From positions 62,001 to 126,000 of the forward strand of contig NZ_JAERRB010000004.1 in NCBI RefSeq assembly GCF_016735595.1: a stretch of DNA of 64,000 bases. The letters are read 5' to 3'. Position 1 is the first letter of the stretch. The number at the start of each line of letters is the position of its first letter. Positions 6,542 to 64,000 of the stretch are shown here, one piece after another. Both the position numbers and the translations under genes were made by a program. The notes beneath the pieces are model-generated. The model had not been told where the DNA came from, searched no databases, and worked only from the letters and a program-made list of their open reading frames with translations. The stretch is from Chryseolinea lacunae (GTDB lineage: Bacteria; Bacteroidota; Bacteroidia; Cytophagales; Cyclobacteriaceae).

Positions 6542-6565
6542 TCTGTAGACAACCGACTAGCAGGT

Positions 6566-7456: not shown

Positions 7457-7476
7457 GAATTTATAGTTTTAAGGTT

Positions 7477-7484
7477 TACATTTG
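7477..7484 (+). promoter_or_regulatory. -7 box between atpG and the UbiA-like gene
   Basis: TACATTTG is a perfect TAnnTTTG match 37 bases before the next start codon. A transcript starting about 7490 would begin inside the atpG terminator hairpin and so could not form it. Promoter and terminator would overlap without blocking each other. Confidence 0.4.
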
Positions 7485-7486
7485 AA

Positions 7487-7513
7487 GTCTCCCCTTACCG
7501 GGAGACTTTTTTT
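7487..7513 (+). terminator. Intrinsic terminator after atpG
   Basis: GTCTCCC (7487-7493) and GGGAGAC (7500-7506) pair around a six-base loop, followed by seven T residues. The next gene starts directly at the end of the T run. Confidence 0.85.
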
Positions 7514-47744: not shown

Positions 47745-48598
47745 CTTTTGGCCTCGCGCGCAGCTTCTTCCATGCGAAGCAACTTGCGAATGGATTTGAA
47801 TGCAATGAGGATCGACACAAAGATGAGCCCCACAAACGAACCGGCCACAATGGAAACCGAAAGCCGGGGTTTCACGGGATTGTTGAACCGGGTGAAGCCT
47901 TCCAACAGTTGAACGCTGTTCACCAACTCCAGTTTGTCTTTCACTTCCAACCGTTTTATAGTGAGCTCCACCAGTTCCTTGTTGATGGAGGTGAGGTCGA
48001 ACACCACACTGCCTTTGGTGTTGTTGAAGAAATCGCCATCGTAGATCCGTTTTTTCAACCCATCGAGGTCTTTGATTTCCTGGTCGTAGCGTGCAATGGT
48101 TTCCTGATAGCCTGTGCGCTTTTGGTTGACGCGCACTTTCACATAGGCGTTGTTTTCGAAATAGTTGATGAGTCCTTTTTGAAGATCGGGCAGAATGTCC
48201 TGGTTGTAGACTTCTACGGTGATGATGAAATATTTGCGGTCTTCCTCTTTGGCTACTTCCGATTCATTTGAGTAGGGGCTTTCAATTCTGACCACCCCTA
48301 CGTTGCTGGCCGTCTCGGCCGAAATGCCGAGCAGCGATGTGAGGGCCTTCGTGTTGCCTTCGGCTAGGTAGTGGTTGATGTTGTCGATGAGCTTTTTGCT
48401 GTAAGACTCCGTCATGATCTCGGAGCTCACGATCATCTTGTTTTCATATACCTTAACGGAAGAGAAATAGTGCATGGAGCCTAGCGCGGTGCCCAGAACA
48501 AAGAAGATGAGAATCATCCAAAAATTGTCGCGGATGATTCGGACTGCCCTGAGGACTAAATCAAGCAGGTCGATCTCATCATTTCTACCGTTCGCCAT
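47741..48598 (-). CDS. Wzz/chain-length determinant-like protein
   Basis: 285 residues. An N-terminal cytoplasmic stretch (EIDLLDLVLRAVRIIRDNFW) enters helix 1 (about 28-48). A long periplasmic helical domain follows (about 50-245), then helix 2 (about 250-270). The end after helix 2 is short, without a tyrosine kinase. This is the Wzz/GumC-type layout that sets polysaccharide chain length. It is divergent from the sugar epimerase that opens the polysaccharide locus, but it shares an operon with ccmBCD. Confidence 0.82.
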   Translation of the reverse strand: MANGRNDEIDLLDLVLRAVRIIRDNFWMILIFFVLGTALGSMHYFSSVKVYENKMIVSSEIMTESYSKKLIDNINHYLAEGNTKALTSLLGISAETASNVGVVRIESPYSNESEVAKEEDRKYFIITVEVYNQDILPDLQKGLINYFENNAYVKVRVNQKRTGYQETIARYDQEIKDLDGLKKRIYDGDFFNNTKGSVVFDLTSINKELVELTIKRLEVKDKLELVNSVQLLEGFTRFNNPVKPRLSVSIVAGSFVGLIFVSILIAFKSIRKLLRMEEAAREAKR

Positions 48599-48657
48599 TC
48601 CCGTGCTGGTTAAATTCCGCGAAAATTAGAAAATATTACAAATTCCCCCTAATCTGT

Positions 48658-48665
48658 TAATTTTG
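48658..48665 (+). promoter_or_regulatory. -7 box of the polysaccharide sugar operon
   Basis: TAATTTTG is a perfect TAnnTTTG match, placing transcription start near 48672 and the ATG 18 bases later. On the other strand TAATTTTC nearby may serve the divergent Wzz-like gene. Confidence 0.55.
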
Positions 48666-48689
48666 TCGGCTTAATTCAGCAGCGATTCA

Positions 48690-49712
48690 ATGCAATCAAA
48701 CGCAACAGTTCTTGTCACCGGGGCGGCGGGCTTCATCGGCTTCCACCTCACCCAAAAACTCACTAGTCTGGGATTCAAGGTAGTGGGCTATGATAATCTC
48801 AACGATTATTACGACGTCAACCTCAAAAACTCCCGTCTCGACATCCTGCGGAAGCTTCCGGGCTTCACCTTCGAACAGGGCGATCTGGTGGACTATAAGG
48901 CGCTCGACAGCGTGTTTGCCGCCTATAAGTTTGACTATGTGGTGAACCTGGCGGCGCAAGCCGGCGTGCGCTACTCGCTCACCAACCCGCATGCCTACCT
49001 GAAGAGCAACCTTCACGGATTTCTGAATGTGTTGGAAACGTGTCGTCATCACAAGGTGAAACACCTGGTCTATGCCTCGTCGAGCTCGGTTTATGGCGCA
49101 AACAAAAAGATGCCCTTTTCGGTGCATCACAATGTTGACCACCCCATATCGCTCTATGCGGCCTCCAAAAAATCGAACGAACTGATGGCGCATACCTATT
49201 CGGCGCTCTTCAATCTGCCCACCACGGGCCTTCGCTTCTTCACGGTCTATGGCCCCTATGGCCGACCCGACATGGCGTTGTTCATTTTCACCAAGGCCAT
49301 TCTCGAAGGCCGACCCATCGACGTGTATAACAATGGCAAAATGATGCGCGACTTCACCTATGTAGACGACATCGTGGAGAGCATATCCCGTCTCGTGCCC
49401 AAACCGGCCAGACCAAACACCGACTGGAACGGTATGGCGCCTGACCCTGCCACCAGCTTTGCGCCTTATCATATCTTCAACATCGGCAACAACCAACCCG
49501 TTGAACTGATGCGCTTCATTGAAGTGATCGAAGAAAAACTCGGCATCAAGGCCATCAAAAACATGATGCCCCTGCAGGAAGGCGATGTGCCCCAAACGTA
49601 TGCCGACGTGGAAGACCTGATGCGCGAAGTAGACTTCAAACCATCGACGACGATCGAGTCGGGCATTGGCCGGTTTATCGATTGGTATAAATCCTATTAT
49701 CAGAAAAAATAA
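48690..49712 (+). CDS. UDP-glucuronate 4-epimerase-like SDR enzyme
   Basis: 340 residues. Extended SDR: the NAD motif is [11 protein letters not shown] (about 10-20), the catalytic set is SSSSVYG with YAASKKSNE, and [11 protein letters not shown] is the signature of UDP-glucuronate/galacturonate epimerases. [19 protein letters not shown] also fits. It interconverts UDP-GlcA and UDP-GalA (or the N-acetyl forms). It is the first gene of a long run that includes the matching dehydrogenase 12 bases downstream. Confidence 0.9.
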
Positions 49713-49724
49713 AGCACAGACCTT

Positions 49725-50975
49725 GTGGAAAAAATAAGCATCATTGGACTTGGGTATGTAGGCCTCCCGTTGGCCGTGGAGTTTGGAAAGATATTGCCTG
49801 TTGTAGGCTTTGATATCAACACCGAACGAATTGAAGAGCTTAAGCGCGGTCATGACCGCACCAAGGAAGTTGAACCGGCAGAATTGAAGCAGTCAACACA
49901 CCTGCAGTTTGCGTCAGACATTGCTGCGCTGAAAGATGTGAGCTACTTCATTGTGACGGTGCCCACACCCATCGACGAATTTAAGACACCCGATCTTCGC
50001 CCGCTGGAAGGCGCCAGCAAGACCGTGGGCAGTGTGTTGAAGAAAGGCGACATTGTTATTTATGAATCCACCGTGTATCCCGGTTGCACCGAAGAAGTTT
50101 GTGTGCCCATCCTGGAGCGCGTGAGCGGTTTGAAATTTAATGTGGATTTTTTCTGCGGCTACTCGCCCGAGCGCATCAACCCCGGCGACAAACTGCACCG
50201 CGTCACCACCATCAAGAAAGTGACCAGCGGCAGCACACCCGAAATTGCCGAGAAGGTGGATCAGCTCTATCGAAAAATTATTACCGCCGGAACGCACAAA
50301 GCGTCGTCGCTCAAAGTGGCCGAAGCGGCCAAGGTGATCGAGAACTCGCAGCGCGACCTGAACATCGCGTTTGTGAACGAGCTTGCCCTCATCTTCGAGC
50401 GCGTGGGCATCGACACACACGAAGTGCTGGAAGCGGCCGGCACCAAGTGGAACTTCCTTCCCTTCAAACCGGGACTGGTGGGCGGCCATTGCATTGGCGT
50501 TGACCCCTATTATCTGACCCACAAAGCCGAAAGCCTGGGCTATCACCCGGAAGTGATCTTGTCGGGACGACGGATCAACGACAACATGAGCATCTACATC
50601 GCCAACACGGTCATTAAGCTGATGGCGCAAAACGAGCAACCCATTCACAAAGGCGACGTGCTGGTGTTGGGCATCACCTTCAAAGAAAACTGTCCCGACA
50701 TCCGCAATAGCAAAGTGATTGACGTAGTGCGCGAGCTGCAAAGCTTTGGCACCACGGTGGATATATACGATCCTCAGGCCGACAGCGCAGAAGTGATGCA
50801 TGAATATGGCGTGCCGCTGGTGGCAAAGCCGAACAAAAAGTATCACGCCGTCGTATTAGCGGTGAGCCACAAAGACTTTACTGATCTCGACTGGTCATCT
50901 TTCACAACAGAGAAAACCGTGATCTATGATGTGAAGGGTACATTGGATAAATCTAAAATCACGGCACGACTCTAA
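49725..50975 (+). CDS. wbpA: UDP-N-acetylglucosamine/galactosamine 6-dehydrogenase (WbpA/TviB-like)
   Basis: 416 residues, GTG start. The NAD site is IIGLGYVGLPLAVEFG. The catalytic Cys256 lies in LVGGHCIGVDPYYL, and the YSPERINPGDKLH motif and GITFKENCPDIRNSKV mark the UDP-sugar dehydrogenase family, in the WbpA/TviB/WecC group rather than Ugd. It oxidises UDP-GlcNAc or UDP-GalNAc to the uronic acid. With the WbpE/D/B-like genes downstream it supplies the first step of the diacetamido uronic acid route. Confidence 0.9.
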   Translation: MEKISIIGLGYVGLPLAVEFGKILPVVGFDINTERIEELKRGHDRTKEVEPAELKQSTHLQFASDIAALKDVSYFIVTVPTPIDEFKTPDLRPLEGASKTVGSVLKKGDIVIYESTVYPGCTEEVCVPILERVSGLKFNVDFFCGYSPERINPGDKLHRVTTIKKVTSGSTPEIAEKVDQLYRKIITAGTHKASSLKVAEAAKVIENSQRDLNIAFVNELALIFERVGIDTHEVLEAAGTKWNFLPFKPGLVGGHCIGVDPYYLTHKAESLGYHPEVILSGRRINDNMSIYIANTVIKLMAQNEQPIHKGDVLVLGITFKENCPDIRNSKVIDVVRELQSFGTTVDIYDPQADSAEVMHEYGVPLVAKPNKKYHAVVLAVSHKDFTDLDWSSFTTEKTVIYDVKGTLDKSKITARL

Positions 50976-50982
50976 AAACCCT

Positions 50983-52011
50983 ATGGCTTTAACAAAAAAA
51001 ATCCTTGTCACCGGCGGCGCAGGCTATATCGGCGCCCACACTGTAGTAGAACTGATCAACGCCGGATACGAACCGGTGATCATAGACGATCTCTCTAAAA
51101 GCGATCGCACCTTGCTGGAAGGCATTGAGAAGATCACCGGCAAAAAGGTGAACTTTCAGAAAGGCGATTGTTGTGACAAGGTTTTTGTTAGGGACGTGTT
51201 TAAAACACAAGGACCTTTTTCGAGTGTGCTGCACTTTGCCGCCTACAAATCGGTGGGTGAGTCGGTGCAGATTCCACTGACCTATTATCAAAACAACATC
51301 GACTCGCTGGTGACCATGCTGGCAGTGATGAAAGAAAACAACGTAACGGATTTTATATTCTCGTCGTCGTGCACAGTATACGGTCAACCCGACCAGATAC
51401 CGGTGAACGAGTCGGCGCCGTTCAAAAGAGCCGAGTCGCCCTACGGCGCCACCAAACAAATGTGCGAGCGCATCCTGGAAGACGCGCACCTCAATGGCTA
51501 CCGTGTCATTTCGCTGCGCTACTTCAATCCAGTGGGTGCGCACCCTTCGGCACAACTGGGCGAGTTGCCCATTGGCGCGCCCAACAACCTGGTGCCCTAT
51601 GTGACACAGACGGCGGCCGGTGTTCGCGAAAAGCTTACGGTGTTTGGCAACGACTACAACACCCCTGACGGTTCGTGTCTCCGCGACTTTATTCACGTGG
51701 TGGACCTGGCCATCGCACACGTGAAGGCGATGGAATATCTTGCAAAACGGCCGGAAGATAAATTGTGTGAGGCCTTCAACGTGGGCACTGGCGTGGGCGT
51801 TTCGGTGCTGCAGCTCATCGACAAGTTTGAGAAAGCAACCGGCGTGAAGTTTGCCTACACCATCGGACCAAGAAGACCTGGCGATGTGGAGAAAGTGTAT
51901 GCCGATCCCGCCAAGGTGAATGCCGCGTTGAACTGGAAGACCAAATATACCCTTGAAGAATCGCTGCTGCACGCATGGCAGTGGGAAAAGAAAATCAGGA
52001 ACATTCAATAA
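50983..52011 (+). CDS. galE: UDP-glucose 4-epimerase
   Basis: 342 residues. NAD motif VTGGAGYIGAHTVVEL; catalytic SSSCTVYG and YGATKQM; RYFNPVGAHPSAQLGE is the GalE signature. It interconverts UDP-Glc/UDP-Gal and often the N-acetyl forms. Its place between the dehydrogenase (7 bases away) and the WbpE-like gene fits a role in hexosamine supply for the surface glycan. Confidence 0.95.
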   Translation: MALTKKILVTGGAGYIGAHTVVELINAGYEPVIIDDLSKSDRTLLEGIEKITGKKVNFQKGDCCDKVFVRDVFKTQGPFSSVLHFAAYKSVGESVQIPLTYYQNNIDSLVTMLAVMKENNVTDFIFSSSCTVYGQPDQIPVNESAPFKRAESPYGATKQMCERILEDAHLNGYRVISLRYFNPVGAHPSAQLGELPIGAPNNLVPYVTQTAAGVREKLTVFGNDYNTPDGSCLRDFIHVVDLAIAHVKAMEYLAKRPEDKLCEAFNVGTGVGVSVLQLIDKFEKATGVKFAYTIGPRRPGDVEKVYADPAKVNAALNWKTKYTLEESLLHAWQWEKKIRNIQ

Positions 52012-52033
52012 ACGTTTTTAAGAAACGTTTTTT
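52010..52033 (+). repeat. Palindromic AAACGTTT pair after galE
   Basis: AAACGTTT, itself a palindrome, occurs at 52010-52017 and 52023-52030 and is followed by TTT. The two copies can pair as a hairpin with a short T tail, giving a weak terminator-like element between galE and the aminotransferase gene. It starts at the last base pair of the galE stop. Confidence 0.45.
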
Positions 52034-52058
52034 ATAAACCGAAATTTATAGTCGCGCC

Positions 52059-53189
52059 GTGGAACAGATAAAAATGGTTGACCTTCAAACGCAATACCTG
52101 CGCATCAAGCCAGAGATTGATGAAGCGATACAACACGTGCTGAACACGACGGCCTTCATTCAGGGCAAAGATGTTTCGGTATTTGCCGACGCGCTGTCAA
52201 CATTCCTGGGAGGTACTCCGGTGGTGCCCTGTGCCAACGGAACCGACGCGTTGCAGATCGCACTGATGGCGCTGAATGCAAAGCCCGGCGACGAAGTGAT
52301 CTTGCCCGTGCACACCTATGTGGCCACCGCCGAAGTGCTGGCGTTGCTGGGCCTGAAGCCGGTGTTTGTGGAAGTGGACGACAACACGTTTAACGTGGAT
52401 GTGAAAGCGCTGGAAGCAAAGGTCACCGCGAAAACATTTGCCATCGTGCCCGTGCATTTGTATGGACAATGTGCCGACATGGAGCCCATTCTCGCACTGG
52501 CCGCCAAACACAAGCTGCATGTTATTGAAGATGCCGCACAAGCCCTGGGCGCTGTCTACACTTTTGCCGACGGCACAAAACGCAAAGCCGGCACCATGGG
52601 CACGATCGGAACCACATCGTTTTTCCCAACAAAAAACCTGGGATGCTTTGGCGACGGCGGTGCCATCTTCACAAACGACAAAGCTCTCGCCGAAAAAATA
52701 AAGATGATTGCCAGCCACGGGCAGAAAGTGAAATACCATCACGAGATCGTGGGCGTGAACAGCCGACTCGACACGCTGCAGGCCGCCATTCTCAATGTGA
52801 AACTGAAGTACCTGCCCGAATACGAGGCCAGTCGGAAAGATGTGGCGAAGTATTACGACGAACACCTGGCGGGCATTTCGCAGCTGAAGCTTCCAGCCCG
52901 CACACAAAACTCAACCCATGTCTTCCATCAATACACCGTGCAGGTGGTGAAGGGCGACCGCGATCATTTCAAGCATTATCTCGAAGAGAAAGGCATTCCC
53001 ACCATGATCTATTATCCGGTGCCGCTGCATTTGCAAAACGCCTACCGGCAACCGGGCATTGGCGAAGGAGCGTTTCCGATAACCGAGCGACTGTCCAGAA
53101 CCGTAATATCACTGCCCATTCACACAGAACTGCCAACGGAACAGCTAGCGTACATCACGTCCACCATCAAAGCCTACTTCGCCGCATGA
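52059..53189 (+). CDS. wbpE: DegT/DnrJ/EryC1 aminotransferase, WbpE-like
   Basis: 376 residues, GTG start. Sugar aminotransferase: [20 protein letters not shown] near the PLP phosphate site, [13 protein letters not shown] with the ring Asp, and the Schiff-base Lys192 in [18 protein letters not shown]. It transfers an amino group, from glutamate in known members, to the 3-keto group of UDP-GlcNAc uronate. ATGA overlaps it with the acetyltransferase gene, so wbpE-D-B are translated together. Confidence 0.88.
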
Positions 53190-53770
53190 CAACCGAAAAA
53201 GATTTTTATGTTCACCCCACCGCGGTGGTCGACGAAGGATGCGTGATCGGCAAGGGCACTAAGGTGTGGCACTTCTCGCACATCATGCCCAATTCAAAAA
53301 TCGGAGAGAATTGCAACATCGGTCAGAATGTGGTGATCTCGCCTGAAGTGGTGTTGGGCAAAAACGTGAAAGTACAGAACAACGTGTCGATCTACACCGG
53401 CGTGACATGCGAAGACGATGTGTTTCTCGGTCCGTCTATGGTGTTCACCAACGTGACCAATCCACGCAGCGCGGTGAATCGCAAAAATCAATATGCCAAA
53501 ACTATTGTGAAGCGTGGTGCCACGATTGGTGCCAACGCCACGGTGGTTTGCGGTCACGACATTGGCGAGTTTGCTTTTATCGGCGCCGGCGCTGTGGTCA
53601 CAAAAAACATTCCGGCCTATGCGCTGGTGATGGGCAACCCCGCGCGGCAAAACGGATGGATGAGTGAGTTTGGTCACAAACTGAATTTTAAAGAAGGTGT
53701 AGCCATCTGTCCCGAGAGCAAAGAACGCTACCGGCTTCAGGATGGCGTAGTTTATAAAATACAACCATGA
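53186..53770 (+). CDS. wbpD: Left-handed beta-helix N-acetyltransferase, WbpD/WlbB-like
   Basis: 194 residues from the ATG at 53186 (ATGA overlap). Hexapeptide repeats run through the protein ([60 protein letters not shown]). FTNVTNPRS and the acetyl-CoA site [16 protein letters not shown] fit the WbpD/WlbB group that acetylates the 3-amino group of the UDP-GlcNAc(3NH2)A intermediate. Confidence 0.9.
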
Positions 53771-54678
53771 AGAATTTTGCATTGATCGGGGCGGCAGGTT
53801 TCATTGCACCTCGTCACCTCAAGGCATTGAAAGAAACGGGCAGCAACCTGGTGGCCGCCCTCGACAAACACGACAACGTGGGCGTGCTGGATTCTTATTT
53901 TCCCAACGCCGATTTTTTCACCGAGTTCGAACGCTTCGATCGCCACCTCGACAAGCTGAAGCGCAAGGGCGAAAAGGTTGACTACATCTCCATTTGCTCG
54001 CCCAACTACCTGCACGATTCGCACATTCGCTTTGCACTGCGTTATGGGGCAAACGCCATTTGTGAAAAGCCATTGGTGTTGAACCCGTGGAACCTCGAAG
54101 CCCTGGCGGAAATTGAAAAAGAAACCGGCAAGCGTGTCAACACAATATTGCAACTGCGCCTGCACCCCAGCATCATCGCCCTGCGCGAGCGCGTGCAGAA
54201 AAGCCCGAAAGACAAAGTATTTGATGTGGATTTGAAATACATGACTTCGCGCGGCAACTGGTATCAGAGCAGCTGGAAAGGCGACACGTCGAAGTCGGGA
54301 GGGATCGCCACCAACATAGGCATCCACTTTTTTGATATGCTGATGTGGATCTTTGGCGAAGTGAAACACAACGCGGTCTATAGCCTCACCCCAACCCAGG
54401 GCTCCGGCTACATCGAACTCGAGAAGGCACGCGTAAACTGGTTTCTCAGCATCGACTACGACGACATTCCGGCTGATGTGAAAGCGCAAGGCAAACGAAC
54501 CTTCCGCACCCTGAGCATGGAAGGCGAAGAAATTGAATTCAGCGACGGCTTCACCGACTTGCACACAAAGAGCTATGCCGAAATTCTGAACGGCAATGCT
54601 TTCGGACTGCAGGATGCCAGGCCCTCCATCGAACTGGCATACGACATTCGAAACAAGGAGCTGACCAAGAAACCCTGA
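53767..54678 (+). CDS. wbpB: Gfo/Idh/MocA oxidoreductase, WbpB/WlbA-like
   Basis: 303 residues, ATGA overlap with wbpD. The Rossmann motif is [36 protein letters not shown] and [15 protein letters not shown] hold the catalytic Lys of the family (EKP). [14 protein letters not shown] and [15 protein letters not shown] match WlbA/WbpB, which oxidises the C3 hydroxyl of UDP-GlcNAc uronate before transamination. Length and motifs are normal. Confidence 0.9.
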
Positions 54679-54735
54679 TCATTTTTAACGTTACTCAACA
54701 CATCACCATAAGAAATTAAACCCTCCCCCTCAAAC

Positions 54736-55602
54736 GTGAAAATATTAGTAACCGGCGGCAACGGACAACTGGGCAGCGAACTGAAAGTTCTTTCGGCCCT
54801 CTATAAAAACTACGACTTCACCTTCATCGATGTGGAGGAAGTAGACCTTACCAAAGAGGATTCCATACGAGCCTACTTTGCCGACAAGCAATTCAACTTT
54901 CTGATCCACTGCGCCGCCTACACCGCGGTAGACAAAGCCGAAGAAGACACAGCGTTGGCCTATGCCATAAACGCCGGGGCGGTGAAGACGCTGGCGGAAA
55001 TTTGTGTGGAGAAAAAAATCAGGATGATCCACATCTCCACTGACTATGTTTTTGACGGCGAGGCAAACCAACCCATCAACGAGTTGGCTAAGCCCAACCC
55101 AGTGTCGGTCTATGGCAAGTCGAAGCTGGATGGCGAGAACCATGTGTTGTCGTTATTGAGCAACGCCTACATCATCCGCACGGCATGGGTATATTCAACC
55201 TTTGGCAAAAATTTCGTGAAAAGCATCCGGAACCTGGCCAGCCAGCGTGAAACGTTGGGCGTGGTGAGCGACCAGATTGGCACGCCAACCTATGCCTACG
55301 ACCTGGCTTCGGCCATTTTGCAGATTGTGGCGGCCGTTCACGAGGGCAGGGCCGACGAGCCCGGCATCTATCATTTCACCAACGAAGGAGTGACCTCGTG
55401 GTATGATTTTGCCTATTTCCTGGTGCAGGAAAGTAAACTAAACTGCAAGGTTCAACCGATTTCGACGGCACAATACAAGACGGCGGCTGTTCGGCCCAAG
55501 TTCAGTCTGCTGGATAAATCTAAAATTAAGGCTACTTTTGCGGTTCAGATTCCGCATTGGTCGGAGAGTTTGAGGATTTGTATCGAAAAATTAACAAACT
55601 AA
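54736..55602 (+). CDS. rfbD: dTDP-4-dehydrorhamnose reductase
   Basis: 288 residues, GTG start. NADPH site VTGGNGQLGSEL; the catalytic elements are STDYVFDG and VYGKSKLDGE; RTAWVYSTFGKNFVKS is the RfbD signature. It makes dTDP-L-rhamnose from the 4-keto sugar. The other rhamnose genes (rfbA, B, C) are not in this window, so either they are elsewhere or the enzyme reduces another 4-keto sugar. Confidence 0.92.
   Translation: MKILVTGGNGQLGSELKVLSALYKNYDFTFIDVEEVDLTKEDSIRAYFADKQFNFLIHCAAYTAVDKAEEDTALAYAINAGAVKTLAEICVEKKIRMIHISTDYVFDGEANQPINELAKPNPVSVYGKSKLDGENHVLSLLSNAYIIRTAWVYSTFGKNFVKSIRNLASQRETLGVVSDQIGTPTYAYDLASAILQIVAAVHEGRADEPGIYHFTNEGVTSWYDFAYFLVQESKLNCKVQPISTAQYKTAAVRPKFSLLDKSKIKATFAVQIPHWSESLRICIEKLTN
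55510..55540 (+). promoter_or_regulatory. Possible internal promoter in the 3' end of rfbD (CTGGATAA-N15-TACTTTTG)
   Basis: TACTTTTG (55533-55540) fits TAnnTTTG, and CTGGATAA (55510-55517) sits at -33 distance. The same arrangement occurs at 61200-61229 and 63522-63553. Because this copy lies in rfbD coding sequence, it could be chance. If real, it drives gtrA and the genes after it. Confidence 0.3.
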
Positions 55603-55650
55603 GAACATGAGCCGGTCCTGGACGCGGGCGGCTCAGCAAGAAAATTAAGG

Positions 55651-56073
55651 ATGGTTAAAAAATTGTTTCAAGGCAGTTTCGTCAGATACCTTATCGTTGG
55701 GATTACTTCCGCTGCCCTCGAAATGTTTTTGCTCATCATGTTCGTGGAGCGGTTTGCCTTGTCCTATCTGGTGGCCAATGTGTTTGCGTTCCTCATCACC
55801 TGCATCATCAACTATTACCTCAGTCGCAAATGGGTTTTCGAGCGCACCGGCGAACGCAAGCGGGTGGAGTTTATGCTCTTCATGTTTTTTGTGACCTGTG
55901 GTTTGCTGATCAGCCAGTTTGTGATGTGGGTGTGCGTGGGCCAATGGCACATCGACTATAGAATTTCGAAAGTGATTGCTACCGGCTTTGTTGTGATCTG
56001 GAATTTCTTTACCCGGAAACATGTTGTCTTCAATCGCCTGGACACCCTGAAGAGCCGGTTCTCAAGACGATAA
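55651..56073 (+). CDS. GtrA-family membrane protein
   Basis: 140 residues with four transmembrane helices (about 8-28, 35-57, 75-97, 107-125). The family features are visible: FQGSFVRYLIVGITSAALEM at the start, TCIINYYLSRKWVFE after helix 2, and FVVIWNFFTRKHVVF at the end. GtrA proteins are thought to flip polyprenyl-phosphate sugars across the inner membrane. The partner synthase is probably the Dpm1-like enzyme at 60266-61045. Confidence 0.9.
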   Translation: MVKKLFQGSFVRYLIVGITSAALEMFLLIMFVERFALSYLVANVFAFLITCIINYYLSRKWVFERTGERKRVEFMLFMFFVTCGLLISQFVMWVCVGQWHIDYRISKVIATGFVVIWNFFTRKHVVFNRLDTLKSRFSRR

Positions 56074-56095
56074 CCATTTAAGTTTTTAATACTGA

Positions 56096-57163
56096 ATGAA
56101 AACAATCCTCATCACCGGGGGCGCAGGCTTCGCAGGATCTTCCATTGCCCTGAACCTGAAACGCAAGTACCCCGCCTACACCATCCTGGCGTTCGACAAC
56201 CTGAAACGCCGTGGTTCGGAACTCAACATTGCACGCCTCACCGCCGAAGGCATCAAGTTCATACACGGCGACATCCGCAGCAAAGAAGACTTTGAGAGTA
56301 TCTCCGAAAAAATCGACCTCATCGTAGAAGCCTCGGCCGAACCTTCTGTGCTGGCCGGCATCAACGGAACACCCGACTATTTGCTGAACACCAACCTGGT
56401 CGGCACCATCAATTGTTTAAATTTTGCAACAAAACATAAATCTGATTTTATCTTTTTGTCCACAAGCCGTGTCTATCCCATTGAAAAAATAGACGCGATT
56501 GCTTTTGAGGAACGCGAAACCCGCTTTGGCATCGCGGCGCAGCAAAAATTGCCGGGCATCGGTCCCAAGGGGCTGTCGGAAGATTTTTCGCTGGAGGGCT
56601 ATCGCTCGCTCTATGGCGCGTCGAAGCTGGCGTCCGAATTATTGATTGCCGAGTACAATCAATTTTATGGACTGAAGACCGTTATTAACCGCTGCGGCGT
56701 GCTCACCGGCCCATGGCAGATGGGCAAAGTAGATCAAGGCGTGATCGTGCTTTGGGTGGCCCGCCACTTTTGGAAAAAAGGCCTGACCTACAACGGCTAC
56801 GGCGGCGAAGGCAAACAAGTGCGCGACATCCTTCACATCGACGACCTGTTCCGCCTGCTCGACATCCAGATGCACGCCATGGACACCTACAGCAACAAGG
56901 TGTTCAACGTGGGTGGAGGAAACGAAGTGAGCTTCTCGCTGAAGGAACTGACGGCCGTCTGCGAAGAAGTGACCGGCAACAAAATTGAGATCGGACAAAT
57001 AAAAGAAAACCGCCAGGCAGACATTCGCATCTATGTGACCGACAACTCCCGCATCACCGCCGCTTCGGGGTGGAAGCCGGAGATCAGCCGGGAGAAGATA
57101 GTGTCGGATGTGTTTGAATGGTTGAAGGCGAATGAGGGGAGTTTGAAGAGTATTTTGGCTTAG
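56096..57163 (+). CDS. NAD-dependent epimerase, CDP-paratose 2-epimerase-like (first)
   Basis: 355 residues. Extended SDR: TGGAGFAGSSIALNL at the NAD site; IVEASAEPSVLAGING is typical of the CDP-paratose/tyvelose epimerase group; catalytic STSRVYP and LYGASKLASELLIAEY. LTGPWQMGKVDQGVIVLWVA is a group-specific substrate loop. The exact sugar is unknown. It is 22 bases from gtrA and 32 bases from a second enzyme of the same class. Confidence 0.8.
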   Translation: MKTILITGGAGFAGSSIALNLKRKYPAYTILAFDNLKRRGSELNIARLTAEGIKFIHGDIRSKEDFESISEKIDLIVEASAEPSVLAGINGTPDYLLNTNLVGTINCLNFATKHKSDFIFLSTSRVYPIEKIDAIAFEERETRFGIAAQQKLPGIGPKGLSEDFSLEGYRSLYGASKLASELLIAEYNQFYGLKTVINRCGVLTGPWQMGKVDQGVIVLWVARHFWKKGLTYNGYGGEGKQVRDILHIDDLFRLLDIQMHAMDTYSNKVFNVGGGNEVSFSLKELTAVCEEVTGNKIEIGQIKENRQADIRIYVTDNSRITAASGWKPEISREKIVSDVFEWLKANEGSLKSILA

Positions 57164-57195
57164 AGTAATAAAGAAATCCATAATATAGCGTACCT

Positions 57196-58257
57196 ATGAA
57201 TATTTCGTTAATCACAGGTTCTTCGGGACTTATTGGGAGTGAGGCCGTGGCTTTTTTTGCAGAGAAATTTGATAAAGTTATCGGGATTGATAATAACCTC
57301 CGTGAGTATTTTTTTGGAAAGGATGGTTCTGTGGAATGGAATAAGAAACGCTTGGAGGAACGGATCAGTAATTTTAAGAACTACGCGGTCGATATTCGAA
57401 ATGTGCCCGATCTGGAAAAAGTGTTTCAGGAATATGGAAAGGATATCAAGCTGGTGCTGCACACAGCGGCACAACCCAGTCATGACTGGGCAGCAAAAGA
57501 GCCATTCACTGATTTTTCAGTGAATGCTAACGGTACATTGAACTTGTTAGAGATGACCCGTGCGCATTGCCCGGAAGCAGTGTTTATTTTCACGAGCACG
57601 AATAAGGTATATGGAGATACACCAAATCGTTTGCCATTGGTAGAGTTGGAACAACGGTGGGAAATAGACACTGCCCATCCGTACTTTGCGCGAGGCATAG
57701 ACGAGCAAATGAGTATCGATCACACCAAGCACTCGTTGTTTGGGGCGTCTAAAGTGGCGGCCGATATTTTAGTGCAAGAGTATGGTCGTTATTTTGGAAT
57801 GAAGACGGGTGTGTTTCGCGGGGGCTGCCTCACAGGTCCTAATCATTCAGGCGCACAACTTCACGGATTCTTGTCGTATTTGATGAAGTGTGTGATCACC
57901 GGAAATCATTACACCGTGTTTGGTTACAAAGGCAAGCAAGTGCGTGATAATATTCATAGCTGGGATTTGGTGAACATGTTCTGGCACTTCTATCAAAACC
58001 CGACGGCTGGGGAAGTATACAACGCCGGCGGCGGTCGTCACTCCAATTGTTCTATGATGGAGGCCATAACACTCTGCGAACAGATTGGAGGCAAGAAATT
58101 AAGTCATAGCTATTCGGAGACAAATCGAGTAGGTGATCACATTTGGTGGATAAGTGACCTCTCGAAATTTAAAAATCACTATCCGGATTGGAAATGGAAA
58201 TACAATCTCACGGATCTTCTCACGGAGATGCATGAAAGTATGTTGCGGCAACACTAG
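57196..58257 (+). CDS. NAD-dependent epimerase, CDP-paratose 2-epimerase-like (second)
   Basis: 353 residues. NAD site [35 protein letters not shown] and [20 protein letters not shown] mark the CDP-paratose epimerase group; catalytic TSTNKVYGD and [16 protein letters not shown]. It resembles the first only in fold and group motifs. The pair could catalyse successive or alternative epimerisations of one nucleotide sugar. From about here on the DNA looks more AT-rich than upstream. Confidence 0.82.
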
Positions 58258-58266
58258 CGAAAAGCC

Positions 58267-60264
58267 ATGACAAAAAAGTTCTCCCAAGTTTTTATTCTCC
58301 TGCTGTCTGTTTTTGTTGTTGCGCTGCATCTTTTTCTTGTTATCAAATACAGTGTCAACGCGCCTGACCTGGATGACTATGACGCTGTTCTGAAATTTGC
58401 GAACGGGTTTGTTCAAGAAAAATCGATCGTTGCAAAGACGCAAAGCATGTTTGCTCAACATAACGAACATCGCATTTTTCTCGATCGTTTTTTTATCGTG
58501 GTGAATCTAGTCACGATAGGGACGATCAATTTCACAGGGTTGGCGCTGATTGGAAATTTATTCATGATCTTGATGTTCCTGCTGTTTGCGCGGATCTTTA
58601 AGGAGTTTGTGTCGACGAATTGGTGGCTTTTTTTTCCGGTTCCGTTGCTGACTTTTAGCCTCGAATCGTTTGAGAATTTTGTGTGGGCCATGGCGTCGAT
58701 GCAAAACGTGGGTGTTGTTCTTTTTGCCGTGGCTTCTCTCTACTTTTTGCTACGGACACGCGAGATTGTTGTTGGTGATTTCGTAATTGCAGCTATACTG
58801 GCATTGCTGGCAACCTATACCAGTGGCAATGGAATGCTGACTTTTATTGTTGCGGCCATAGGCATGGTATCCATGAAGAAACCTTTGAAGTGGATCCTGT
58901 TGTGGGGCGCCATTTCAGTTGTTGGAGTTGTGTCTTATTTCTATGGCTATCACAGTGTTGGTGGTCATCCTGATCCGATTGCCACGATTACGGAGAGACC
59001 GGATCAGTTGATTTCACATTTCTTTGTTTTGCTGGGATGCATTGCCGATGATCTGGCTATTTCAGTTTTTCTTGGTTTTGTTTTTTCAGTGCTTTTCATT
59101 TTTCTTATTTTAAACGGAGTACATCAACGTCGTGCCGTTCTCTTTTTCATCTTGTGTTTCTTCATTCTAAGCTCATGCCTGGTGTCGCTCACCCGTGGAG
59201 GGTTTGGCGTCGGTCAGGCCATGTCCATGCGCTATCGTCTCTATTCTGAGCTGATTGTGTTGTTCTTCTATTTTCTTGTGATCGTGGAAGCAAGACTGGA
59301 TGGGTATCGCAGAATAGTTGTGGGGTTGTTTTTTGCAACAGTGGCGTTTCTCTACATTAGGTCATTTTCTCAGAACATTCCGGAAATGAGAGCGCGTCAT
59401 GATAATTTAGCGCAAGGAGTGGCGCATTTCAATGCGGGAAATCAAATATTCCACCTGTCTTATCCTGATCAGATCCATGCTCATTATGTGCTGACGAAGA
59501 GCCTTGCTCTGGGTATTTACAAATTGCCTTCTATCAATTTATCTGATTTGGAAAGAACTACGGTTGAAGAAACATTGCCGGAGGAGGAGGGACTTGTGCA
59601 GAGCGCATTTGAAATTGACAGCACAAACGGTCAGCTATTTGTCGATAGTGCAAGCACATTCATTGAGGGCCAGAAGGCCTCCGATATTTCGGTCTATGTG
59701 GTTATAAAGAACGAACAGGAGACGCTTATTTTCAGAACGGTAAGATATCTTAAGCAGCGTGAAACATCTGATCGCAGGGATGTTAGTTGGTTTACTCAAC
59801 TCAAAGGTTTGAGTGATGGAAAATATGCGTTGGGTTTTTATGTTAAAACACCGCAGAAAAATGCGTTCGATTTCACAGGCGCAGTATTGACCGTGGCCTC
59901 GGGAAAATTAACTGTTCAACAGGATCCACATCTAAAGTGTAAATTTTCCGTCGACGCTTTTGAAAATGCAAGCGACTCAATTCACGTTAAGGGTTGGGTT
60001 TTTGTTGTGAATGCCGATGCGGCAAAGATTGGAAGGAAAATAATCTTGCGGTCAGGGTCCATTGAAAAAGCGTTTGAGCCAGAAATCTTGGTACGCCCTG
60101 ATGTATCGGCTGCCTACAATGGCAACTATGATTTAAGTGGTTTTGATTTGAGAACCCCAAGAGACAACTTCTCGCCCGGACGGTATGCGCTGTGGTTGGA
60201 GATTTCATATGAGGGGGTGATCAAATTGATAGACACAAAATCTAATTTGGAGATAAAGAAATAG
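58267..60264 (+). CDS. Polytopic GT-C-like membrane protein with soluble C-terminal domains (paralogue A)
   Basis: 665 residues, not recognised as a named family. About ten or eleven transmembrane helices (residues 8-370) are followed by about 290 soluble residues. The first outer loop has an acidic motif (PDLDDYDAVLKFAN), then FAQHNEHRIF. Both lie where GT-C glycosyltransferases keep catalytic acidic and His residues. Other marks are ENFVWAMASMQN, TSGNGMLTF, GHPDP and a GGFGVGQAMSMRYRLYSELI loop. The C-terminal part holds beta-rich units with IHVKGWVFV. It is clearly paralogous to 61424-63433. A role in adding a lipid-linked sugar outside the membrane is inference. Confidence 0.75.
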   Translation: MTKKFSQVFILLLSVFVVALHLFLVIKYSVNAPDLDDYDAVLKFANGFVQEKSIVAKTQSMFAQHNEHRIFLDRFFIVVNLVTIGTINFTGLALIGNLFMILMFLLFARIFKEFVSTNWWLFFPVPLLTFSLESFENFVWAMASMQNVGVVLFAVASLYFLLRTREIVVGDFVIAAILALLATYTSGNGMLTFIVAAIGMVSMKKPLKWILLWGAISVVGVVSYFYGYHSVGGHPDPIATITERPDQLISHFFVLLGCIADDLAISVFLGFVFSVLFIFLILNGVHQRRAVLFFILCFFILSSCLVSLTRGGFGVGQAMSMRYRLYSELIVLFFYFLVIVEARLDGYRRIVVGLFFATVAFLYIRSFSQNIPEMRARHDNLAQGVAHFNAGNQIFHLSYPDQIHAHYVLTKSLALGIYKLPSINLSDLERTTVEETLPEEEGLVQSAFEIDSTNGQLFVDSASTFIEGQKASDISVYVVIKNEQETLIFRTVRYLKQRETSDRRDVSWFTQLKGLSDGKYALGFYVKTPQKNAFDFTGAVLTVASGKLTVQQDPHLKCKFSVDAFENASDSIHVKGWVFVVNADAAKIGRKIILRSGSIEKAFEPEILVRPDVSAAYNGNYDLSGFDLRTPRDNFSPGRYALWLEISYEGVIKLIDTKSNLEIKK

Positions 60265-60265
60265 A

Positions 60266-61045
60266 CTATTCGATGCTCTTGGTCGTCAGCTTTTGTGCCT
60301 GTTTGAGTTGTGTGTCTTTATGAAAATCTTTTCGTGAGAAGAATTTCTCGATCAAACAGTATAGAAGGATGAAGAAATAGCGACTGCCCATTTCCTTTAT
60401 TTTGAGTTTTGACTCACCTGCCTTTCGATTTGTCCACCGGTTGGGGACCACCGCAAAGGTGTATCCACGCACAATGGCTTTTAGTGGGAGCTCGATGGTA
60501 AGGTTAAAATGCGGGGCAAGTAGTGGCTGAATTCCTTGTATCGTTTCTTTTTTGTAAAGCTTAAACGCGTTTGTGGTATCGTTGTAGCTCATCCCCATGG
60601 TTACGCTGATGACCAAGTTTGCCAGGCGGTTGATGGTTCGTTTTAGTAGCGGATATCCGTGTGTGGATCCACCTTTTACAAAACGGCTTCCGAAAACGCA
60701 ATCATAGTTACCTTCTTGCATCTTGTCGTAAAACCGGACCAAATCATGTGGGTCGTCCGAAAGGTCGGCCATCATCACGGCCACGCAGTCGCCAGTGAAG
60801 CGTTCCAGTCCGTAGCGAACCGCGTGACCAAAACCATTAGGCCCAGGGTTAGTATAGATAGTGAGTGTGGAGATGGAGTTTTTCAGGTTTTCCAGAATGA
60901 CCAATGTGTTGTCTTTCGAGTTGTCGTTGGTCACCAAAATCTCGTGATCAATTTGCCTGGCGCGAAGACAATCGTGAAGACTGACGAGCGTTTCGGTGAT
61001 GGAACCCTCCTCGTTATAGGCTGGAATAACAACGCTTAATTTCAT
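60266..61045 (-). CDS. Family 2 glycosyltransferase, Dpm1-type polyprenyl-phosphate sugar synthase
   Basis: 259 residues from the ATG at 61045 (MKLSVVIPAYNEEGSI). GT-A motifs are complete: the NDNSKDNT loop, VAVMMADLSDDPHDLVRFYD with the metal-binding Asp, and VFGSRFVKGGSTHGYPLLKR, typical of dolichol/polyprenyl-phosphate sugar synthases. Only one short hydrophobic stretch (YFFILLYCLIEKFF) occurs near the C-terminus, so it lacks the two-helix tail of GtrB. It sits antisense between the two GT-C-like paralogues, one base from the stop of the first. Confidence 0.9.
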   Translation of the reverse strand: MKLSVVIPAYNEEGSITETLVSLHDCLRARQIDHEILVTNDNSKDNTLVILENLKNSISTLTIYTNPGPNGFGHAVRYGLERFTGDCVAVMMADLSDDPHDLVRFYDKMQEGNYDCVFGSRFVKGGSTHGYPLLKRTINRLANLVISVTMGMSYNDTTNAFKLYKKETIQGIQPLLAPHFNLTIELPLKAIVRGYTFAVVPNRWTNRKAGESKLKIKEMGSRYFFILLYCLIEKFFSRKDFHKDTQLKQAQKLTTKSIE

Positions 61046-61423
61046 TCTTGAGATGTGGAAGTTTAGGGCTGGGTCAGAGCAATCATTCGGTGTAAAAATA
61101 AAGGTAAATATTTGTCGAAATTCAAATTGCATCGAAAATTGAGGTCAAATTTTAAAAAGACATTGCCAGAACACGAACGTCGGCCACCTTCACCGTTCGC
61201 TGGATAATTCGAAATATGCACTATTTTTGAAGACTAAATTTGAACTAGTTCTGGTTTGTGAGAAGACTGAAGCGTCAAAAGGAGGATGAACGATTCGTAG
61301 TGCACCTTCGATAAAATTTCGACCACGAATGCTGACTTGACAACCAACCAAATCTCACGAAGTTGTGTCTATTTGGAGAAATCGAACCTTGTGACTACTA
61401 AATACAATTGAAATGATTGCCCG
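61046..61423. other. 378-base AT-rich intergenic region
   Basis: It lies between the divergent GT2 gene and paralogue B. It carries a plus-strand promoter candidate (61200-61229) and, on the minus strand, a near-consensus TACCTTTA (61106-61099) for the GT2 gene. A short inverted repeat CGAACG/CGTTCG (61174-61179, 61194-61199) is probably chance. No open reading frame or RNA gene is recognised. Confidence 0.5.
61200..61229 (+). promoter_or_regulatory. Promoter candidate CTGGATAA-N14-TATTTTTG
   Basis: TATTTTTG (61222-61229) is a perfect -7 box, with CTGGATAA (61200-61207) at -33 distance. Transcription would start near 61236, leaving an unusually long leader of about 190 bases before paralogue B. 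Confidence 0.45.
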
Positions 61424-63433
61424 ATGAAGAAGATTACCGCTGCTAAAATTGTGTTCCTTGTGTCGATTGCCGTTGTGGCGATACATTTTGTTGTGATCTA
61501 CAAATATGGGCTCAACATACCCGACTGGGACGACTATGGAAGCGTTTTAAGATTTGCCAATAATTTTAGGACCGATCAGAATTTTGCAACGAAATGGATG
61601 AGCTTGTTTTCGCAGCACAATGAACATCGGATCTTTTTTAATCGGATTGTCACATTGTTGAACTTGGCGGTTTGGGGAAAAATCGATTTTAGGTTTTTCA
61701 TTGTCGCAGGAAACTTGTCGCTGTTGGTGGTGTTCTTGCTGTTTGTGAAATGCTTCAAGGAAATCGTGGCTGGGGAATGGTGGTTTTTTTTGCCGGTCCC
61801 CTTCCTTTTGTTTAGCGTTGGGTCCCATGAAAATTTTCTTTGGGCAATGGCTTCGGTTCAGAACATTAGTGTGGTCTTATTTAGCCTGGCAGCTCTGTAC
61901 TTTCTGTTTCGCTCAGAAAAAATGACCGCACGCGATTTTGCTTTTGCCTGTGCGCTGGCACTGCTGGCAACCTTCACGAGCGGAAATGGCATGATAACAT
62001 TCGCAACAGGACTTCTAGGGTTGATCATTAGAAGATACCCCGTCAAGTTTTTATTAATGTGGGGCGTACTGGCAGGTATTGCTATTCTTTTGTACAGCAA
62101 AGGATATGTTGCTGTTGATGGTCATCCTGATCCAATGCAAACAGTTGTCCGTCAACCGGATCAATTGATTTCTCATTTCTTTGTGTTGCTTGGATGCATC
62201 ACGGGCAATCTTTCGCTCTCTGTGTTCCTTGGGTTTCTTCTGACAGTTGTCTTTGTCTATCTGACTGCCGAGAGATATTTCGACAAACAGCCGCTATTGT
62301 TTTTTATGTTAACATTTCTCGTTCTGAGTTCTTGTGTTGTTTCGTTGTCGCGTGCTGGCTTTGGTGTGGAGCAGGCCATGGCCGTGCGTTATCGACTGTA
62401 TTCCGAACTGATAGTGCTGGTCTTATACCTGATGTTGATTCCTGATATTCTACAAAATGCAAAAAAGTACGTTATCGTTGTTGCTGTGATATTGACGTCG
62501 ATAGTGCTTTATGTTGTTGCCTTCAGGAAAAGCATGCCCGACATTCAAACTCGTTTTGACAAGTTAAAGCATGGCGCGGTATACTATAACGAAGAACACT
62601 CTTTAAGCTATTTGTCGCTGCTTAGCCATGCCGATGCCGGCGATATTCTGGCGACAAGCAAGACACTGGGCGTATTTGCAATGCCGTCATTTTTCTATAG
62701 CGATATGCAGTCTGAGCAAATTGATCGTGTGGTGCCTATGCCGACAGATAATATTAAATATAATTTTACATTCAAACCCCGAAAAGACATGTTATTCATC
62801 GACAACGGATGGGCGTTTGTAGAGGGTCGGAACACCGCTTCGATGAAAACATTAGTTGTCTTTAAAAGCGAGACGAAGACCTATGTTTTCAAAACGGTAG
62901 CACATCTCCGAAACGATGTAGCCATTGCGTTCGATCAGGATGTTGCCGATTCGGGCTTTAGTTTGATAAAAGATTGTGGCGGCCTGGATGAAGGAGAATA
63001 TCGGGTGGGCTTCCTGATCGAACACCCGGGTTCCACGGCGTTTGAAAATACTGATATCGTCGCTGTCGTAACGGAGCAAGGTTGTGCGTTCAAAGCTATT
63101 CCCACAGATCAAAGCTTCTATCTCGATGTCGCTGAGGTTAGCCCAGACGGTGTATACATTCGGGGTTGGGTTTTTGTGCCCAACGCCGCGTCGACACTTG
63201 TGACCAAGGATATTATTCTCAAGGGGGCGGCCGGAAATCGATCATTTGTTCCGAGGAATGAATTCAGACGTGATGTCTCAAATTCATATGGCGGAGCATA
63301 TGATTCCAGTGGATTTGTGTTGCATTTACCAAAAGGTGTATTGGCAAGTGGCGACTATACTATAGTGTTGCGTGTTTCTTATGACGGAATCAACACCATC
63401 ATTGATACGGGTAGAAAGATTAGGTCGGAATAA
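61424..63433 (+). CDS. Polytopic GT-C-like membrane protein with soluble C-terminal domains (paralogue B)
   Basis: 669 residues, same layout as 58267-60264. About ten or eleven helices (8-375) carry the same motifs: PDWDDYGSVLRFANNF, FSQHNEHRIFF, ENFLWAMASVQN, TSGNGMITF, GHPDP, RQPDQLISHFFVLLGCI and RAGFGVEQAMAVRYRLYSEL. The soluble part has two beta-rich units; DNGWAFVEGR and VYIRGWVFVPNA occur about 170 residues apart, and DSSGF recurs in both paralogues. By eye the membrane parts are roughly half identical and the tails much less so. This suggests shared catalysis with different acceptors, which is inference. Confidence 0.75.
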   Translation: MKKITAAKIVFLVSIAVVAIHFVVIYKYGLNIPDWDDYGSVLRFANNFRTDQNFATKWMSLFSQHNEHRIFFNRIVTLLNLAVWGKIDFRFFIVAGNLSLLVVFLLFVKCFKEIVAGEWWFFLPVPFLLFSVGSHENFLWAMASVQNISVVLFSLAALYFLFRSEKMTARDFAFACALALLATFTSGNGMITFATGLLGLIIRRYPVKFLLMWGVLAGIAILLYSKGYVAVDGHPDPMQTVVRQPDQLISHFFVLLGCITGNLSLSVFLGFLLTVVFVYLTAERYFDKQPLLFFMLTFLVLSSCVVSLSRAGFGVEQAMAVRYRLYSELIVLVLYLMLIPDILQNAKKYVIVVAVILTSIVLYVVAFRKSMPDIQTRFDKLKHGAVYYNEEHSLSYLSLLSHADAGDILATSKTLGVFAMPSFFYSDMQSEQIDRVVPMPTDNIKYNFTFKPRKDMLFIDNGWAFVEGRNTASMKTLVVFKSETKTYVFKTVAHLRNDVAIAFDQDVADSGFSLIKDCGGLDEGEYRVGFLIEHPGSTAFENTDIVAVVTEQGCAFKAIPTDQSFYLDVAEVSPDGVYIRGWVFVPNAASTLVTKDIILKGAAGNRSFVPRNEFRRDVSNSYGGAYDSSGFVLHLPKGVLASGDYTIVLRVSYDGINTIIDTGRKIRSE

Positions 63434-63521
63434 CCTTGATGTCTGGGATGATGCCGGTCAGCAAGCTAAAAACGAAGGCGATTTGGATCGCAGGACGGCG
63501 GCGGGCAATTCAAAGCATCTA

Positions 63522-63553
63522 CTGGATAAATGCCGAAATAAGCGCTACTTTTG
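63522..63553 (+). promoter_or_regulatory. Promoter candidate CTGGATAA-N16-TACTTTTG
   Basis: TACTTTTG (63546-63553) is a perfect -7 box, with CTGGATAA (63522-63529) at -33 distance. It lies 88 bases before the start of the last glycosyltransferase gene, in the 208-base gap after paralogue B. Nothing else was recognised in that gap. Confidence 0.5.
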
Positions 63554-63641
63554 CAAGCTAAAATCTTGAATATTGATGCATGGAATTTGTCCAAAAATAA
63601 CGCGGTCAAAAGGCCAGGCGTTTCCATAAACTAACTTTTCG

Positions 63642-64000
63642 ATGACGTCATTCACCACGCCTATATTATTGGTACTGTTTAACCGCCCCGGTCAGACCCG
63701 TTTGGTGTTCAACGAGATCAGGAAGTTGAAACCCGCGCGCTTGTTCGTTACCGGCGATGGCCCCCGCGCCCATGTGCCCACCGATGCAGAGCGGTGTGAA
63801 TTGACACGGGCTATCATAAAGGATATTGATTGGGATTGCACCGTGCAGACATTGTTCAGAGAAAAGAACCTTGGCTGTCGAAAAGCAGTGAGCAGCGCCA
63901 TCGATTGGTTTTTCGAGCAGGTAGATGAAGGAATTATCCTCGAAGATGATTGTCTTCCGTCGGCGAGCTTTTTCACTTTTTGCGCTGACATGTTGTCGCG
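63642..64000 (+). CDS. Glycosyltransferase (HlpA-like, GT-A fold), N-terminal fragment
   Basis: The first 119 residues, cut by the window end; the frame is open from the ATG at 63642. The start TPILLVLFNRPGQTR, then LFVTGDGPRAHVP, NLGCRKAVSSAIDWFFEQ and EGIILEDDCLPSASFF are the pattern of the nucleotide-diphospho-sugar transferases once annotated as HlpA-like. The EDDC motif would hold the metal. It probably adds a sugar to the surface glycan of this locus. Confidence 0.85.
   Translation, partial: MTSFTTPILLVLFNRPGQTRLVFNEIRKLKPARLFVTGDGPRAHVPTDAERCELTRAIIKDIDWDCTVQTLFREKNLGCRKAVSSAIDWFFEQVDEGIILEDDCLPSASFFTFCADMLS

Follow-up and report, generated by a model that had tools for sequence, protein, structure and literature searches.

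Gene content of the locus

The window analysed here is a 64,000-nucleotide stretch of Chryseolinea lacunae DNA (positions 62001-126000 of contig C24 in the 7.9-Mb genome G000), which carries, at its positions 55651-63433, a putative periplasmic glycosylation system centred on two large paralogous membrane proteins, P0001 and P0002. From position 55651, four plus-strand genes follow one another with gaps of 22, 32 and 9 bases: a GtrA/DPMS-TM family protein of 140 aa (P0003, 55651-56073), two short-chain dehydrogenase/reductase (SDR) epimerase-like proteins (P0005, 56096-57163; P0006, 57196-58257) and P0001 (665 aa, 58267-60264). A Dpm1-type family 2 glycosyltransferase (GT2; P0004, 60266-61045) converges on P0001 from the minus strand, and P0002 (669 aa, 61424-63433) lies on the plus strand beyond a gap. 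A preliminary description of the window had listed a GtrA-type protein, a Dpm1-type GT2 and two polytopic proteins of 665 and 669 residues within 8 kb, all four of which are present (PF04138, PF00535 and a pair with 40 % identity); the two SDR genes were missing from that list, and the GT2 gene lies on the minus strand with a start that is probably at 61045.

A membrane protein family without a library entry

P0001 and P0002 share 40 % identity (668 columns, E value 1e-170) and the same architecture, i.e. approximately ten hydrophobic helices followed by two beta domains. The four motifs previously described as common to the pair occur in both proteins: PD.DDY (residues 33-38), QHNEHR (64-69), TSGNG (185-189) and GHPDP (233-237). 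The first of these, an acidic motif of the first loop, reads PDLDDY in P0001 (58363-58380, plus strand) and PDWDDY in P0002 (61520-61537, plus strand). Across an alignment of 26 relatives, only part of the motifs proved to be family-wide: D36 and G189 are kept in all 26 rows, P33, E67 and R310 in 25, R69, R322 and Y323 in 24, G257 and G270 likewise in 24-26, H68 in 20, and D37 and N66 in 19, while no GHPDP column reached 65 %; among the ten rows of alignment A2, the complete GHPDP was confined to the window pair. D36, just past hydrophobic helix 1, and E67-R69 are located between helices 1 and 2, and D36, E67, R322 and Y323 are intact in both window copies. The 26-row alignment omits fragments and disrupted copies (G329, G479 and G664), a second reading of one G640 gene, the G277 protein (related through its C-terminal module only) and the G507 member, which falls beyond the 11-row profile at an E value of 1e-3 and was placed by a two-row profile search of the phylum.

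The family has no entry in the protein-family libraries searched (Pfam and NCBIfam), in keeping with the preliminary description, which knew the large proteins from no described system. Neither P0001 nor P0002 matched Pfam at an E value ≤1, including PMT_2 (PF13231), YfhO, GtrII and the other GT-C families, and NCBIfam returned one line only, far below threshold (E value 0.016; 15 bits, the cut-off being 81). For the ten A2 members, Pfam at an E value ≤0.1 gave no PMT_2 and a single BcsG match (7.8e-4, in 1/10), and PHROGs gave two lines (0.036 and 0.063), all of which we take as chance. Six A3 proteins returned no PMT_2 at the same Pfam threshold, yielding DUF6311 for the G277 protein and three other lines at 0.04-0.07. 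Against PDB sequences, P0001 and the ten-row A2 profile produced no credible match (one chance line, E value 0.8) and none to any solved Emb or Aft chain. No paper naming this membrane protein family was found among the open-licence papers searched; GT136 was named in a single relevant one.

Relatives were detected in 15/395 genomes of the phylum using the two-row profile (A1; E value ≤0.001) and in 12/395 genomes of the class using the ten-row profile (E value ≤1e-5), with G277 recovered by its C-terminal module only in both cases; the phylum and class samples overlap. In closely related genomes the family is scarce, the only positive genome among 196 of the taxonomic family and among 6 of the genus being that of the window itself, and a six-frame search of this genome with P0001 returned the window pair plus one chance line (E value 0.65). 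Scans of genome and viral contig sets revealed no relatives, nor did tblastn searches of plasmids (P0001 and the L037 member) or phages (P0002).

Two members occur together in 3/27 family loci (the window, L028 and L206). P0001 and P0002 are sisters in our tree (100/98), as are the tandem pair of G640 (95/95), and the G380 pair (L028) are not; the tree carries long-branch warnings for other rows. On this tree, members of the family doubled more than once.

Remote homology to PMT_2 glycosyltransferases

The GT-C-like character attributed to the large proteins in the preliminary description was supported by profile comparisons with negative controls. The 26-row family profile matched a set of 25 PMT_2 proteins at 93.9 % (E value 1.6e-7, 233 columns in order). 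This set, drawn from ten of these genomes, keeps those 25 of 30 loci in which the frame stays open for 430 aa or more across the match. The same profile scored 0.1 % against 30 MFS proteins and 4.2 % against 30 Wzy_C proteins. Removal of the window pair left the PMT_2 match at 90.1 % (controls, 0.1 and 4.5 %), and removal of the rows from genome family f18 left it at 93.6 % (controls, 0.8 and 12.2 %). Four random halves of the PMT_2 set returned 89.3-95.6 %, and halves of the two controls at most 3.1 %. Compared with the remaining members, the f18 rows scored 99.6 % (310 columns). The Viterbi alignment puts D36 three columns away from the Asp that PMT_2 conserves in its first loop (20/25) and pairs the late Arg-Tyr of the family with the late Tyr of PMT_2 (18/25), a correspondence that is suggestive only. 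Taken as profiles, these sequences indicate that the family is remotely homologous to PMT_2 GT-C enzymes. The likeness to PMT_2/ArnT-type GT-C enzymes (PF13231) extends in order over ~230 columns; the family differs in having constant residues of its own (E67, R69 and R322-Y323) and in lacking a Pfam PMT_2 match.

The C-terminal module

Both window copies end in a two-domain module (P0001 residues 430-665, 59554-60261; P0002 residues 430-669, 62711-63430; both plus strand). A model of the P0001 C-terminus shows two beta domains at a mean predicted local distance difference test score (pLDDT) of 61.9, the second with block means of 50-89 and the first of low confidence. Foldseek returned no match to this model at an E value ≤0.001; the best matches were cytokine-receptor and antibody beta sandwiches (2.8e-3 and worse), with TarS at 2.3e-2, and we take the module only as a predicted beta sandwich.

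The two-row profile also matches the end of the DUF6311 protein of G277 (L036, 7471-9951; E value 1e-16). This protein resembles the window pair in its C-terminal two-domain module and differs in its N-terminal half, which belongs to PF19830; the module may thus have been exchanged between two membrane protein families. A profile of the module itself hit 2/395 genomes, G000 (both copies) and G277, all three proteins being rows of that profile; the idea of a widespread module was dropped. From its position, and from the analogous binding domain of the GT136 enzyme ORF12, the module may bind glycan; the ORF12 domain bound unmodified polysaccharide and was dispensable for activity (PMC11127046).

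Putative donor-synthesis genes and cluster setting

P0003 matches PF04138 above the cut-off (E value 4.9e-24, 85.2 bits). Members of the GtrA family act as flippases or as anchors of lipid-sugar synthases, making P0003 a putative flippase or synthase membrane anchor. One further GtrA copy, on contig C1, was the only other one found in this genome.

The nearest solved protein for both SDR proteins is a CDP-tyvelose 2-epimerase (PDB 9rl0; P0005, E value 2.6e-45; P0006, E value 8.3e-38). P0005 keeps the YGASK motif, while P0006 reads SLFGASK, with Phe in place of the Tyr of YxxxK. In CDP-tyvelose 2-epimerase, Tyr164 is the catalytic base (PMC13098431), and our equation of this residue with the YxxxK Tyr is by motif only. 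Phe occupies that position in 20/20 fetched P0006 relatives (L181-L200), which make up an SDR subfamily near CDP-tyvelose 2-epimerase; P0006 may be either a catalyst or the partner of another SDR.

P0004 is a putative polyprenyl-phosphate sugar synthase (PF00535, E value 3e-27) whose nearest solved relatives are dolichol-phosphate mannose synthase (5mlz, E value 1e-21) and ArnC (E value 1e-13), and it has no hydrophobic helix above the hydropathy threshold. Its open reading frame was listed to 61132; the true start is probably Met30 at 61045, since residue 1 of the relative in locus L205 aligns to P0004 residue 30.

Upstream of the run lie genes for nucleotide-sugar synthesis (a UDP-sugar dehydrogenase, a DegT aminotransferase and a Gfo/Idh protein), and downstream, besides genes judged glycosyltransferase-like by eye, there are a flippase of the Wzx type and an O-antigen ligase/Wzy_C protein (L004, 16918-18186; E value 1.2e-18). 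We read the whole as a Wzx/Wzy-type surface polysaccharide cluster. No Rfam match was obtained in 55000-64000, and promoter and terminator patterns in 60100-61600 were no more than expected by chance.

Neighbourhoods of relatives

In G759 (L205; family f57 of the same class), relatives of P0005 (55 % identity), P0006 (71 %) and P0004 (70.6 %) are followed by a family member, all on one strand, with PMT_2-like, DUF6056 and small EamA-type proteins nearby. This arrangement links the SDR pair and the GT2 with the membrane family over a wide distance. Locus L035 of G558 has a 76 % relative of P0006 ~0.5 kb behind a member, and an ArnC-like synthase (E value 2e-49) ~4 kb on.

A different set of genes precedes some members of f18. 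The order UbiA/HAD, DprE1, DprE2, member was found in 4/9 member-bearing f18 genomes (G368, G507, G529 and G533), a count to be read with the reservation that two of these four loci, those of G533 and G529, were the source of the UbiA/HAD and DprE profiles. In G533, DprE1 matches its mycobacterial counterpart (E value ~2e-87), and the UbiA part of UbiA/HAD matches decaprenyl-phosphate phosphoribosyltransferase (2e-24). Neither UbiA/HAD nor DprE1 was present in any family locus outside f18 or in any of 20 control loci, one of which gave a weak DprE2-like SDR. The controls, being P0006 loci of which three or more belong to genomes with members elsewhere, are not neutral. In three of the other five f18 loci, the member has as neighbours a nucleotidyltransferase gene and one of the lipid A acyltransferase type. 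In family f3, one G438 member adjoins a GtrB-like synthase (sll0501, E value 1e-72) in a cluster with an EamA protein, and a PMT_2 gene is directly beside three members (L030, L031 and L213) and within 7 kb at L028 and L033; a PMT_2 gene also occurs in 2/20 control loci.

The context favours lipid-linked donors, on account of the SDR-SDR-GT2-member order in G759 and the UbiA/HAD-DprE1-DprE2-member order in f18, and so agrees with the carrier-lipid sugar proposed in the preliminary description. Its expectation that homologues co-occur with GtrA and Dpm1-like genes held in part: 6/15 genomes (G000, G507, G368, G479, G422 and G348) have GtrA no more than 15 kb from a member and the GT2 adjoins the member in G759, whereas no f3 member has GtrA in this range and GtrB-type GT2 genes were not enriched. 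The survey did not bear out the contrary prospect, that homologues never occur near such genes.

Proposed function and alternatives

We consider it probable that the run at 55651-63433 encodes a three-component-type periplasmic glycosylation system within the Wzx/Wzy-type cluster, with two GT-C enzymes of the library-less family. Beyond homology and gene neighbourhood, we infer the following steps. One or both SDR proteins would make a 2-epimerised or otherwise altered nucleotide sugar; P0004, judging by its family, would load the sugar onto polyprenyl phosphate; P0003 would move the lipid-sugar across the membrane or anchor the synthase; and P0001 and P0002 would pass the sugar from the lipid to a periplasmic glycan. 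By analogy with ArnT, for which phosphate and sugar contacts are known, and with GT136, Asp36 is a candidate catalytic base and Arg322-Tyr323 may provide such contacts, while the two C-terminal beta domains may hold the acceptor glycan. The weakest step concerns the two copies, which would most likely serve two linkages or two acceptors.

Apart from the reservation on the f18 count given above, several observations weigh against this reading. The PMT_2 match falls mainly within transmembrane columns, the f18 rows alone reach only 7.1 % against PMT_2, and the 12.2 % of the f18-less set against Wzy_C is the highest control. Single PMT_2 sequences score at most 5.4 %, little above other membrane proteins, so the GT-C case rests on profiles; in that comparison, the top score among the 'other' rows (90.1 %) belongs to the G277 protein, on account of the shared C-terminal module, the second best (10.4 %) is PMT_2 by Pfam, and several 'other' rows are themselves PMT_2 proteins by Pfam. 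An AlphaFold2 model of the whole protein, made from two sequences, was too poor to use (pLDDT 40.7). None of the eight f3 members (G380, G438 and G558) has GtrA within 15 kb; the gene is on other contigs in G306, G483 and G533, and was not found in G277 (module only), G329 or G529. Enrichment of GtrB-type GT2 is unsupported, with matches at an E value <1e-50 in 5/27 family loci against 3/20 controls, and three of those five themselves form rows of the profile. No second locus with GtrA, both SDRs, the GT2 and two members was seen. P0006, a common polysaccharide gene, was rejected as a marker of the system: its relatives (E value ≤1e-60) occur in 23/364 genomes, and none of the 20 neighbourhoods fetched holds a family member.

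Known systems offer partial parallels. Gtr systems combine a GtrA flippase, a GtrB polyprenyl-phosphate sugar synthase and a variable GT-C enzyme, GtrC. Like those of Salmonella and Shigella, the window has a GtrA protein, a putative lipid-sugar synthase and polytopic transferases in one run; it differs in that its Dpm1-type GT2 lacks a hydrophobic helix whereas GtrB has C-terminal helices, and in having a pair of transferases that end in beta domains, two SDR genes and a polysaccharide-cluster setting. The mycobacterial arabinan pathway (decaprenyl-phosphate phosphoribosyltransferase, DprE1/DprE2, the small exporter Rv3789 and Emb/Aft) resembles the f18 loci in UbiA/HAD, DprE1 and DprE2, and two f18 genomes (G507 and G368) have GtrA ~3 kb away; it differs from the window cluster, in the searched stretch of which no UbiA/HAD or DprE1 was found. 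With the pentofuranose three-component system (GT136) of Citrobacter youngae O1/O2, compared here by its published description, the family shares a GT-C-like plan in which acidic residues stand close to helix 1, an Arg-Tyr comes late and a further domain forms the C-terminus; UbiA/HAD, DprE1 and DprE2 precede 4/9 f18 relatives, and O2 has an SDR epimerase, ORF13. That system differs in its polyprenyl phosphoribose synthase and MATE flippase, where the window has a Dpm1-type GT2, GtrA and two beta domains (PMC11127046).

A broader proposal, which we advance tentatively and regard as doubtful when taken as a whole, is that a GT-C family is coupled to interchangeable donor modules (a Dpm1-type GT2 with two SDRs in the window and G759, GtrB/ArnC-type synthases, or the UbiA/HAD-DprE1-DprE2 arabinofuranose pathway), and that the window copy was doubled, gained tandem glycan-binding domains and became an Emb-like pair that adds a rare lipid-linked sugar to two sites of one polysaccharide. 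If our reading is correct, a GT-C family that has a model in neither Pfam nor NCBIfam becomes nameable and testable in vitro, and 'hypothetical' genes by GtrA, Dpm1-type or DprE1/DprE2 genes become readable as parts of periplasmic glycan decoration. The family would then offer a single type of transferase paired with unlike donor pathways, and a sister pair with which to ask why GT-C enzymes come in twos.

EmbA/EmbB and Pmt1/Pmt2 act as heterodimers, and P0001 and P0002 might likewise form an obligate heterodimer that makes one linkage. The sister relationship, equal architecture, intact motifs and closeness of the two genes would fit, as would the second tandem sister pair in G640; that two members occur in just 3/27 loci, with the L028 pair non-sister, speaks against it, and we consider an obligate heterodimer unlikely. 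We would place at a similarly low level the idea that both proteins are GT136-like pentofuranosyl transferases, which would draw on a polyprenyl-phosphate pentofuranose synthesised at another place in the genome and leave the nearby GT2 to a different step. The four f18 relatives directly behind UbiA/HAD, DprE1 and DprE2 favour it, as do the helices (11 predicted), the C-terminal binding domain and the residues required for cellular activity (D31, E34, H106 and R349) of GT136 ORF12 (PMC11127046). No UbiA/HAD or DprE1 was found, however, in window positions 48001-64000 or the 19-kb L004, the rest of G000 not having been searched, and it is the SDRs and Dpm1-type GT2 that are kept in G759.

The setting in a Wzx/Wzy-type cluster, the polytopic form with loops expected to be periplasmic and the 12.2 % match of one profile variant to Wzy_C might instead suggest Wzy/WaaL-type polymerases or ligases that carry extra domains and do not transfer lipid-linked sugars. 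That match rests on 23 columns near the C-terminus, the full profile gives 4.2 % for Wzy_C against 93.9 % for PMT_2, and the cluster already holds a Wzy_C protein of its own, so that we judge this very improbable. The poor whole-protein model would also accommodate inactive proteins or a transport or regulatory role for P0001 and P0002; the constant polar residues in both copies and the donor-synthesis genes in the neighbourhoods make any of these a slim prospect compared with the proposed glycosylation system.

Additional observations

Among the 20 P0006 neighbourhoods, a P0005 relative of at least 40 % identity was found in one (L198) and P0004 relatives at ~70 % in two. The latter (L182, 3227-4000, and L183, 742-1485; 70-72 % identity, in G438 and G380) share their clusters with ~75 % P0006 relatives, and no family member was present in the 19 kb fetched. 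G910 has a P0005 relative (62.5 %) in the vicinity of two members; it was dropped from consideration, as it lies ~8-14 kb away with unrelated-looking genes between.

DUF6056 proteins (L205, 1399-2853; L033, 11007-12443) share clusters with members and have PMT_2-like proteins nearby; the L205 protein has the first-loop sequence WYDDYY, as seen by eye. Just upstream of the two L028 members, positions 5611-7626 encode a 671-aa protein with an apparent Rossmann-type N-terminus and a GtrB-like GT2.

Behind genes annotated as UbiA, GtrA, FAD-binding oxidoreductase and SDR, three Rhizobium plasmids encode a tandem pair of polytopic hypothetical proteins (518-539 aa) that are alike by eye (L217, 11052-14182; L218, 11068-14201; L220, 10936-14142). 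The oxidoreductase and SDR are DprE1/DprE2-like by position only, and membership of the tandem proteins in the family is unsupported (whole-sequence E value 0.06 or worse). Kelly et al. mention that, in Xanthomonas and a Bacillus, there are systems for which several epimerases or GT-Cs are candidates (PMC11127046).

The G+C content of 55651-63433 is 45.2 %, compared with 52.0 % over the window's first 48 kb. Lowered G+C is often seen in exchanged polysaccharide genes.

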